DNA of 64,000 nt from Pseudochrobactrum kiredjianiae (lineage in GTDB: Bacteria > Pseudomonadota > Alphaproteobacteria > Rhizobiales > Rhizobiaceae): assembly GCF_030362795.1 (NCBI RefSeq), contig NZ_JAUCBM010000005.1, positions 124,001-188,000 of the forward strand, written 5' to 3'. Every line of letters begins with the position of its first letter. Within the stretch, counting starts at the first letter, position 1. The position numbers and the translations under genes were made by a program. Below the pieces are notes generated by a model. The model had not been told where the DNA came from and searched no databases. It worked only from the letters and a program-made list of their open reading frames with translations. This document shows positions 30,523 through 33,069 of the stretch, piece after piece.

Positions 30523-31272
30523 TTAATGGGCAGGATGCAGGGCATCATTGAGATACATGCAGGTCAGCATTGTGAACACATAGGCCTGAATTATGGCCAT
30601 CAAGAATTCAAGTGCGGTGATGCCGACAGTCATGGCGAGCGGCAAAACAGAACTGACAATGCCTAAGGTTCCAAGCCCTGCGAGCGAGGCGACAAATCCG
30701 GCAAAGACCTTCAATGTAATATGTCCGGCCAGCATAACCGCGAAAAGACGTACAGAATGGCTGACAGGCCGTGAGAAGTAAGACATCAGCTCGATCGGCA
30801 CGATGATCGGTGCAAGAACCAGCGGCACACCTGAGGGCATGAACAGCCGGAAGAATTGCGTGCCGTTACGTATCAGGCCATAGAGCGTGACTGTCAGAAA
30901 GACGGTTATTGCCAGTCCGAATGTAACGATAATATGTGCCGTGACCGTGAAGGTATAGGGGAACATTCCCAGCAAATTGGCTGTGAGGATGAACATGAAC
31001 AGCGAGAAGACCAGCGGAAAGAAGCGTCTGCCTTCTTCGCCCGTATTATCGCGCAAAGTGGTAAACACGAATTCATAGAGAATTTCAGCTGAAGATTGCC
31101 AGCGCCCCGGGATCAGTGTTCTGCCGCGTGCAGACAAAAACAGGTACAGACCCGCGCCGACAGTTGCGATCAGCATGAACAATGCCGAATTGGTAAAAGC
31201 GATCTGGATGCCACCAATTTCACCCAAATCTGCAATCGGTTTGATTTCAAACTGTGCGATTGGTCCGGCCAT
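30523..31272 (-). CDS. atpB: ATP synthase F0 subunit a, isolated and atypical
   Basis: Subunit a forms the proton half-channels against the c-ring. The 249-residue product from ATG 31272 (AGGGAG upstream) has the normal alphaproteobacterial length and five to six helices. The essential Arg is in HSVRLFA, and the Gln of the last helix is in IQAYVF. However, the residue four after the Arg, normally Asn (RLFANM), is Val here ([10 protein letters not shown]). The gene also stands alone: no atpI, atpE or atpF lies on either side, and the preceding gene has its own terminator. It may be a second, paralogous atpB, with a complete operon elsewhere. Confidence 0.9.
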
Positions 31273-31360
31273 GAGATCGTCTCCCTGTGCGATGAGCGTA
31301 TCGAACGATAGAGCGATTCGCGCCCTCTGTGCCACTATAAGGCCGATATCTTGTGACATA

Positions 31361-31396
31361 AAAAAACAGAGGCCTCGTGATAAGACCTCTGTTCCT
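31361..31396 (-). terminator. Terminator of the DUF465 gene
   Basis: Stem AACAGAGG/CCTCTGTT; on the minus strand it is followed by a T-run. It isolates atpB from the gene upstream, so the atpB promoter must lie within 31273-31360. Confidence 0.85.
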
Positions 31397-31749: not shown

Positions 31750-33069
31750 TCAGAATTTGACCGACCAGCGCTCAATATCATTGCTCTGACCAATCAGTGC
31801 CAAACCGGTTGCAATGGAGTCGAACTGGTTGCTGCTGGATACGTCCGCATGTTCAAATTGCTCCGAGAATAATGTCTTGATTGCGGGAACAAATGATGTG
31901 CCGCCAGTCAGAAACACGCGGTCAATATCGTTGTAGGCCAGACCGGCATTCTGCACGGCATTGTCAACGCAAGTGGAAATTGCCTGCATGTCTTCAGCTA
32001 TCCAGCTCTCAAAGTCGGAGCGTTGAATCTGCGCCTCGATTTTGAAGTTCTCAGCTTTGAATGTCAGCTCTGAAGTTTGTGAAGAGGACAGACCGGCTTT
32101 GACATCGGAGACAACGCGGTACAGCTCAAAGCCATAATCGCCCTCGATCATTTCGATGAAATTTTCAAGCACTTCCGGCTGTTCTGCCTGTGATGCCAGT
32201 TCATGCAGCTCCCGCAAGGTTGACGGGGTGTTCATCAGGAACAGCGTGTTCCAGCGGGCAAAATTTGCAAAATAGTGGTTAGGGATTTGCAGCACTTTAC
32301 CAAAGGATTTGTAATTGCTTCTTTTGCCGAGTTTTGGCGAAACCACATTATCAATGATGCGGTAATCAAATGTATCGCCCGCTATGCCGAGACCAACCTG
32401 ACTGAGCGGTGTTGCACTCAGGCCATTGGCGCCGACTTCAAAATTGACAATCGAAAAGTCGCTCGTACCACCGCCAAAGTCGGCAACCAGTACGGTTGAA
32501 GAGCTGGTTAGTTTTTGCGCATAGAAAAAGGCCGCCGCTACCGGCTCATAAACATAATGAATATCGGTGAAGCCAAAATCCCGCAGCGCTTTTTCATAAC
32601 GCGCCATAGCCAGTGCTTCATCCGGATTATGTCCGGCAAAAATGACGGGACGGCCGACAATCACTTTATTGCCGCGCGACGGCAGACGGTCGCCAAGACG
32701 CTCGGCCAGAGTTTCCAGAAATGTACGCAGCAAATCTTCGAATTTAAAGCGTTTGCCGTAAACCGGTGTATCGCTGAAGGATTTGCTTGCTGCAAAAGAC
32801 TTAAAAGACTGCAAAAAGCGGCAATTATGCGGATCGGCAATGAAACGGTCCATCGCCCAAGGGCCGCTTTCCACATTGCGATGACCTTTATTACCATCCT
32901 GCCAGAAACACAGCACAGAGCGATAGGCCGATACCATGGCCTCATCTTTCGGGAAGGTCATAACTTCGGCAATGCCTTTGCCGTCAGCTACGGCGATGAC
33001 TGTGTTTGTTGTACCAAAATCGAGGCCAAGGGTTATCGTCTCCGAGGGGGCGTTATTTCCCGCAGTCAT
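31750..33069 (-). CDS. Hsp70-family ATPase without substrate domain (YegD-like)
   Basis: A 439-residue actin/Hsp70-fold protein containing only the nucleotide-binding domain, close in size and layout to E. coli YegD. Phosphate-1 motif LGLDFGTTNTVIAV is at residues 14-27, phosphate-2 VADFGGGTSDFSIV at about 195-208, and the adenosine motif FLTGGTSFVPAIK at about 390-402. There is no beta-sandwich peptide-binding domain, so it is not a classical DnaK. Client and role unknown. AAGGA nine bases upstream. Confidence 0.9.
   Translation of the reverse strand: MTAGNNAPSETITLGLDFGTTNTVIAVADGKGIAEVMTFPKDEAMVSAYRSVLCFWQDGNKGHRNVESGPWAMDRFIADPHNCRFLQSFKSFAASKSFSDTPVYGKRFKFEDLLRTFLETLAERLGDRLPSRGNKVIVGRPVIFAGHNPDEALAMARYEKALRDFGFTDIHYVYEPVAAAFFYAQKLTSSSTVLVADFGGGTSDFSIVNFEVGANGLSATPLSQVGLGIAGDTFDYRIIDNVVSPKLGKRSNYKSFGKVLQIPNHYFANFARWNTLFLMNTPSTLRELHELASQAEQPEVLENFIEMIEGDYGFELYRVVSDVKAGLSSSQTSELTFKAENFKIEAQIQRSDFESWIAEDMQAISTCVDNAVQNAGLAYNDIDRVFLTGGTSFVPAIKTLFSEQFEHADVSSSNQFDSIATGLALIGQSNDIERWSVKF

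Follow-up and report, generated by a model that had tools for sequence, protein, structure and literature searches.

What would a bacterium do with an ATP synthase subunit a gene that stands by itself? The question is raised by a locus of Pseudochrobactrum kiredjianiae within a stretch of 64,000 nucleotides (assembly GCF_030362795.1, contig NZ_JAUCBM010000005.1, positions 124,001 to 188,000 of the forward strand), which we refer to as the window. The gene, here called atpB2, has an intact reading frame on the minus strand that runs from an ATG at 31272 to a stop at 30523 (Table 1). Its product (P0001) exceeded the cut-offs of three curated models: Pfam ATP-synt_A (PF00119; 215.3 bits versus 33.9), NCBIfam NF004482 (362.2 versus 225) and NCBIfam TIGR01131 (223.3 versus 102.6). 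By these cut-offs and its conserved residues, P0001 is a full-length F-type ATP synthase subunit a. One usual, although not strictly defining, trait is missing: no other Fo genes lie beside atpB2, whose neighbors encode a DUF465 protein (upstream, same strand) and an EF-hand protein (downstream). An earlier note on this DNA, made from its letters alone, had reported an orphan atpB with a terminator just upstream; it had coordinates, strand and frame right, the gene is indeed alone, and a hairpin followed by a T7 run lies where a terminator was described. This hairpin (31390-31368; -13.9 kcal/mol, z -1.95, with 8 of 200 shuffles equally good) was not listed by a simple terminator scan; to judge from where it lies, it terminates the DUF465 gene upstream of atpB2. 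Beyond that gene, still farther upstream, the minus strand also encodes an Hsp70/MreB-like protein of 439 aa (window 31750-33069).

Table 1. Features of the atpB2 locus, in window positions
Feature	Position	Strand	Basis
atpB2 (P0001), stand-alone subunit a paralogue, 249 aa	30523..31272	-	Pfam/NCBIfam scores, tree
Met225 codon, 4 residues before conserved Gln229 (E. coli Q252)	30598..30600	-	alignment of 119 rows
Val179 codon GTT (E. coli a214 position), group hallmark	30736..30738	-	alignment of 119 rows
Essential Arg codon (R175 = yeast R176; E. coli R210)	30748..30750	-	alignment to yeast chain 6b2z_a
His172 codon (E. coli a207 position)	30757..30759	-	alignment of 119 rows
atpB2 leader with ribosome-binding sequence CAGGGAG; guanidine-II aptamer missing	31273..31335	-	comparison with L038, L039, L042
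Intrinsic-terminator-like hairpin, then T7	stem 31368..31390	-	behind upstream DUF465 gene

A whole-genome search revealed two subunit a genes, both of which exceed the same curated cut-offs. The second lies on contig C1 in a normal operon, with an AtpI-like reading frame upstream (assigned by sequence) and genes for c, b' and b downstream. The earlier note had proposed looking for such a copy, had named a genome with a single atpB, together with Val at the site in all close relatives that have a normal ATP synthase, as the outcome that would speak against it, and had listed among its options that the window gene might be the only atpB left by an operon split; two copies are present and, since one of them sits in a normal operon, this last option falls away. 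Genome searches recovered a single c gene and a single b/b' pair, each located next to the C1 copy, in agreement with the statement that no c or b gene is near atpB2. AtpB2 is thus without Fo partners of its own.

The relationship between the two kinds of subunit a was computed from an alignment of 119 rows (89 AtpB2 and 30 housekeeping), 110 of which are different because some genomes are repeated (L014 and L110, for example, are the same place); duplicates (L001, L003-L006 and the L002 copy) were kept out of this set. In a quick, unrooted tree a single branch parted AtpB2 from the housekeeping proteins (SH-aLRT 95), and in a second tree of the same quick, unrooted kind, for which four hallmark columns and the long rows L115 and L092 had been removed, the split received 100. 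L115, which has Asn at the site discussed below and falls on the housekeeping side on a long branch, is not among the 79 AtpB2 loci counted in later sections. AtpB2 is therefore a paralogue of the housekeeping subunit. L037, which we kept, is titled Bacillus subtilis SK6B4 and bears a Pseudochrobactrum-type locus (96% aa); its assembly is probably contaminated or mislabelled.

What distinguishes the paralogue in the alignment is a small set of residues. Residues R175, Q229, E222 and H184 are conserved in both groups with at most one exception per group, which upholds the earlier observation that the essential Arg (in VRLFA) and the terminal Gln are kept. Two columns separated the 119 rows perfectly. 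Residue 179 was Val in 89 of 89 AtpB2 rows, a count to be read with the fact that the peptide patterns of the collection scan include FAVMLAGH and so favor Val, and was Asn (27), Ser (2) or Ala (1) in the 30 housekeeping rows; a whole-protein search of the family, which used no Val-favoring pattern, returned 10 AtpB2 copies, all with Val. At residue 225, all 89 AtpB2 rows had Met and the 30 housekeeping rows Val (28) or Ile (2). Two further columns were less exclusive: residue 172 was His in all 89 AtpB2 rows and Leu (26) or His (4) in the 30 others, while residue 107 was Ala in 86/89 and Phe in 29/30, with Thr in the window copy. The note had also described Val in place of a nearly invariant Asn and suggested aligning both copies of the motif. 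The window protein reads VRLFAVM and the C1 operon copy RLFASM, so that Val is confirmed (RLFAVM versus RLFASM), but the genome's own counterpart is Ser rather than Asn. Because Val is fixed in the entire paralogue group, it is not a chance change of the window gene; tree and alignment together bear out the proposal that the gene is a paralogue altered next to the essential Arg.

By alignment, residue 179 corresponds to E. coli a214, the fourth position past Arg210, and residue 225 stands four positions ahead of the counterpart of E. coli Q252. Cross-linking by Jiang and Fillingame in 1998 reportedly placed a207 and a214 on the face toward the c-ring. By alignment to chain 6b2z_a and by the yeast subunit a residue numbering given in the available part of PMC10151828, the yeast counterparts of R175, H184 and E222 are R176, H185 and E223. 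According to the part of PMC5214741 at hand, Q252 and R210 are at similar distances from Asp61 of subunit c. A literature search returned no paper that names E. coli residue 214 together with 210 and 252.

AtpB2 is distributed patchily. An orthologue (≥67% identity) was present in 10 of 151 genomes of the family, each of which also has a second match, and in 0 of 384 genomes of other families at E≤1e-80, where the best match had 61% identity; most relatives thus do without it. In 11 loci from this other-family search the site equivalent to 179 was Asn in 10, and L159 had no match to the motif. A collection scan, of which the best 80 of 145 loci were kept (L036-L115, on which all 79-locus counts rest), found AtpB2 in many genera of Rhizobiales, among them Brucella, Ensifer, Shinella, Aminobacter, Rhizobium and Agrobacterium as well as Kaistia, Afipia and Bosea, and in one Reyranella bin. 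Since Kaistia, Afipia and Bosea belong to other families, the 384-genome sample is thin.

The window copy is under strong purifying selection, with dN/dS of about 0.05. Within the Pseudochrobactrum-type loci its values ranged from 0.040 to 0.051, including 0.051 against L038, and the housekeeping atpB gave 0.034 over 218 residues compared; more distant comparisons gave 0.074 (L040) and 0.056 (L047) and were not computable for L045, dS being near saturation beyond L037. A pseudogene was rejected as a reading of the locus on the strength of the intact frame and the dN/dS of about 0.05. The related idea that the gene is in decay, an orphan without function in this genome that stems from an operon split or from a duplication that failed, would suit a gene that is alone and whose lineage has lost a regulatory RNA (see below). 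Set against it are the unbroken frame, the 96% aa identity shared with P. asaccharolyticum (L036, the nearest named genome by AtpB2) at a dN/dS of 0.047, and the full operon copy elsewhere in the genome, and we regard it as very improbable.

The main discovery lies outside the window: in related loci, AtpB2 is preceded by a guanidine-II (mini-ykkC) riboswitch. Guanidine riboswitches are widespread. A covariance model that we built from 15 leaders found the element before AtpB2, at up to 309 nt upstream, in 76 of 79 loci (best 80 of 145), or in 61 of 64 once the training loci were removed; the misses overall were L036, L037 and L076. Among 40 housekeeping-type or other subunit a loci the same model had no match at E<0.01, the best (E 0.034) being far from the gene in L157. 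The Rfam model RF01068 scored above its gathering threshold, on the same strand and before atpB2, in all 13 loci that had been chosen from the 80 for their spread. Six further loci were searched in this way, of which L038, L039, L041 and L048 passed and L036 and L037 failed, as were eight loci missed by a simple hairpin rule, of which two passed (L061 and L106). That rule, which looks for tandem ACGR hairpins, located them within 500 nt upstream in 68 of 81 stretches (the window and L036-L115; best 80 of 145). It gave 19 additional same-strand hits just downstream of atpB2 and before Gdx, 8 elsewhere in the 872 kb and 5 on the other strand; shuffled sets gave 0.15.

Two genome-scale searches place this association in context. 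Across the 10 family genomes with AtpB2, Rfam detected at least 14 guanidine-II matches at E≤0.01, a count from which matches may be missing since at most 150 first-look candidates per genome were scored. Among the 14 listed, AtpB2 was the next gene after eight, Gdx after three, a ChaA-type gene after two and UAAP1 after one. The element thus preceded atpB2, at the gathering score, in eight of these 10 genomes; the two without it were the window's genome and G071, whose locus (the same as L110) matches our own guanidine-II model with 40.2 bits. In a class-wide sample, guanidine-II elements occurred in 39 of 385 genomes; 30 of these loci were inspected, 16 holding Gdx and 14 none of the four query proteins. 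AtpB2 was found in 0 of the 30 (the window genome's own locus, which held ChaA, was excluded), and its link with the riboswitch is therefore confined to the AtpB2-bearing group. Within that group, the comparative support for a link between AtpB2 and guanidine is strong. As to the earlier suggestion of a stress-specific stator, the gene does look stress-specific; the note missed the likely stress, guanidine, whose signs lie beyond the window. In one locus (L177), the guanidine-II element precedes a gene for UAAP1, a urea amidolyase-associated protein, and ABC-transporter genes precede UAAP1.

The arrangement of aptamer and gene suggests how such a switch may work. In 27 loci, about 15-23 nt separate the end of the aptamer from the start codon, and in these leaders the 3' strand of P2 can pair with the ribosome-binding region; L082 resembles them but was omitted on account of a misplaced start. 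The remaining loci have the beginning of the aptamer about 115-309 nt upstream of atpB2. Among the 27, all 10 leaders with CCCGGCC in P2 carry a matching GGCCGG-type sequence, compared with 1 of the 17 others, the P2 motif classes having been chosen after the sequences were viewed. Cognate pairing averaged 4.96 versus 4.22, a difference reached by 0 of 20,000 leader permutations, although relatedness among the loci inflates this figure. Locus by locus the pairing is weak (p<0.1 in 9/27). For these 27 loci, covariation of P2 with the ribosome-binding region is consistent with an ON switch, where guanidine would stabilize P2 and so release the ribosome-binding site.

In the window lineage, atpB2 has lost this element. 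No guanidine-II match was found in the window at the gathering score, and none at E up to 5 between 31230 and 31500. A hidden riboswitch in the leader was rejected as a candidate, four weak matches (sau-30 and L20_leader among them) being far below gathering. From a shared CGAATCG to the ATG the window has 48 nt, compared with 95 nt in L038, where the aptamer is kept; the window leader is thus shorter by 47 nt, and the aptamer measures about 45 nt. The loss is common to the window, L036 and L037, and the aptamer is retained in the Pseudochrobactrum-type loci L038, L039 and L042. In the accessible part of PMC13064478, removal of 20 bp from the E. coli gdx riboswitch rendered gdx expression constitutive; by analogy, atpB2 of the window lineage is probably made constitutively since it lost its aptamer. 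The window genome does keep one guanidine-II element, with 30.7 bits (below gathering), before a ChaA-type gene. This antiporter is of the Na_Ca_ex type (L120 204-1394; element at G000:C25:16239-16279, gene downstream), and a pair of guanidine-II element and ChaA-type antiporter also occurs in G096 (L183).

We then considered the genes that accompany AtpB2. A gene for a small multidrug resistance protein, a SugE/Gdx guanidinium exporter, lies directly downstream in 29 of 79 loci, a ChaA-type antiporter precedes AtpB2 in 10 of 79, and an MrpF-like gene is a neighbor in 5 of 79 (all from the best 80 of 145). The one neighbor scanned (L040) passed the SugE model NF008512 (131.2 versus 126), its transport activity being putative. 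A conserved general neighborhood across the window and the 80 loci was rejected: five of 25 listed clusters were inspected, and these were Gdx, ChaA-type, assorted ABC ATPases, or frames that overlap other genes or run antisense to them. In five loci (L084, L093, L096, L097 and L107; two records titled Agrobacterium, two Rhizobium and one from Rhizobiales), a larger cluster contains MrpF-like, ChaA-type and AtpB2 genes, each behind its own match to our model, with a fourth match between ChaA and AtpB2. The MrpF-like gene (K+/H+ antiporter subunit F) is divergent from the ChaA-type gene (L093 2771-3064; L107 2868-3155), and among the frames listed for L093 and L107 it has no further Mrp gene as a neighbor. 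These two loci also have, between atpB2 and the ChaA-type gene, a small frame with no Pfam match (L093 4579-4899; L107 4608-4835), which stands behind a further guanidine-II model match.

The riboswitches and the adjacent SugE/Gdx genes make guanidine the most likely stress served by AtpB2. The same neighbors allow a simpler view, that atpB2 is a redundant dosage copy riding on a guanidine-controlled transporter operon, with the riboswitch serving the neighbor and Val a neutral marker. Such a passenger would explain the 29 of 79 loci with Gdx downstream and the 16 of 30 class-wide guanidine-II loci that hold Gdx without atpB2. It fits poorly with the 50 of 79 loci that show no Gdx in the stretch examined, given an aptamer directly before atpB2 in 76 of 79, with the 19 loci that have a further tandem hairpin between atpB2 and Gdx, and with two positions fixed across many genera at low dN/dS; we consider it improbable. 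Still less credible is a motor that carries guanidinium itself, with AtpB2 turning Fo into a guanidinium exporter or leak: the association with guanidine riboswitches would suit it, but the proton-path Arg, Gln, Glu and His are kept and a dedicated exporter already adjoins in 29 of 79 loci.

The simplest reading of an additional subunit a under a guanidine switch, in which Val takes the place of a polar residue near the Arg, is that of a guanidine-tolerant replacement. We consider it somewhat more probable than an even chance that AtpB2 is an inducible, guanidinium-tolerant spare subunit a of the guanidine response in Rhizobiales. Guanidinium is the head group of the essential Arg of subunit a, and it may enter the half-channels of Fo or the a/c interface. 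There it would compete with the Arg for the carboxylate of the c-ring or, alternatively, sit on the polar Asn one helix turn away; in either case proton flow would be hindered. The guanidine-II riboswitch would then open the atpB2 ribosome-binding site, and AtpB2 would join the usual c, b and F1 subunits to form an enzyme that may be less hindered by guanidinium. AtpB2 retains the Arg, Gln, Glu and His, with Val in place of the polar Asn and a Met next to the conserved Gln. Exporters (Gdx) and cation/proton antiporters (ChaA-type and, in some loci, MrpF-like) lie downstream of RNAs of the same kind. In the window lineage, where the aptamer is gone, the replacement would probably be present at all times.

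The bolder form of this proposal holds that guanidinium naturally inhibits the ATP synthase motor by copying its Arg, that a group of soil bacteria answers by riboswitch-controlled exchange of a stator subunit (Asn to Val near the Arg, Val to Met near the Gln) alongside exporters and cation/proton antiporters, and that the window lineage has made this answer constitutive; we put it forward tentatively, as a little less probable than not. In the part of PMC8873251 available, bedaquiline is described as mimicking the subunit a Arg at the c-ring carboxylate, and acylguanidines are postulated to be mimics of the same Arg, an amiloride derivative inhibiting F1Fo weakly. The same source argues that not every Arg mimic inhibits F1Fo, which counts against the tolerance reading. 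So do the window gene without a riboswitch, the patchy occurrence of AtpB2 and its absence from the 30 class-wide loci. In addition, Val and Met could change proton conductance instead of guanidine binding.

That last point leads to the main rival, in which guanidine is a signal and not an inhibitor of Fo. Exporters and antiporters would drain the proton gradient, and the enzyme with Val and Met would be slower, less leaky or more one-directional, which would spare that gradient. The Gdx, ChaA and MrpF families, names assigned here by profile, couple transport to protons. The presence of such genes near AtpB2, together with two fixed changes near the essential Arg and Gln in sequence, agrees with an adjustment of proton use; the conserved channel residues kept in AtpB2 do not. 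The altered proton handling listed among the options of the earlier note may thus apply, if at all, in this form. We judge this explanation unlikely, though clearly ahead of the passenger copy. If the bolder form of the tolerance proposal is correct, a target in a rotary ATPase would be replaced in response to a metabolite, and guanidine toxicity would gain a named molecular target. Which part of the cell guanidine harms is poorly defined, and AtpB2 behind the switch points to the a/c interface as a candidate target, one that can be tested largely at a single amino-acid position. It would also constitute a natural experiment on the conserved Asn beside the essential Arg, in a region that the accessible part of PMC8873251 makes relevant to Arg-mimicking drugs such as bedaquiline. 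A 2025 review, in the part available, names protein denaturation as a possible form of harm (PMC12186494). Among the papers searched, none linked guanidine riboswitches with an ATP synthase subunit, although gene tables of the original mini-ykkC/guanidine-II reports may mention one; the terms 'ATP synth' and 'ATPase' are absent from the main texts, in the portions accessible, of PMC7266159, PMC12335538, PMC7736828 and PMC12186494.

AtpB2 can be placed among known systems by what it shares with each. It has the family (PF00119, NF004482/TIGR01131) and length range of the housekeeping subunit a but differs in its position outside the atp operon, its fixed Val and Met, and the guanidine-II element upstream in relatives. 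Extra subunit a genes also occur in some genomes as part of the N-ATPase, or alternate F1F0 ATPase (TIGR03306); this identity was rejected for P0001, which scored 72.3 bits against a cut-off of 302.1 and for which no second c/b genes were found. With the guanidine-II regulon, known for SugE/Gdx exporters and guanidine degradation genes, AtpB2 shares the RNA class and its companions (Gdx and, once, UAAP1), whereas the gene controlled in AtpB2 relatives is an ATP synthase subunit. Resistant second copies of drug targets, such as the mupirocin-resistant Ile-tRNA synthetase, follow the same logic of a second, less sensitive copy, which AtpB2 would share if it is indeed guanidine-resistant. Unlike those, the AtpB2 case would involve a natural metabolite as the poison and a part of a rotary motor as the target.
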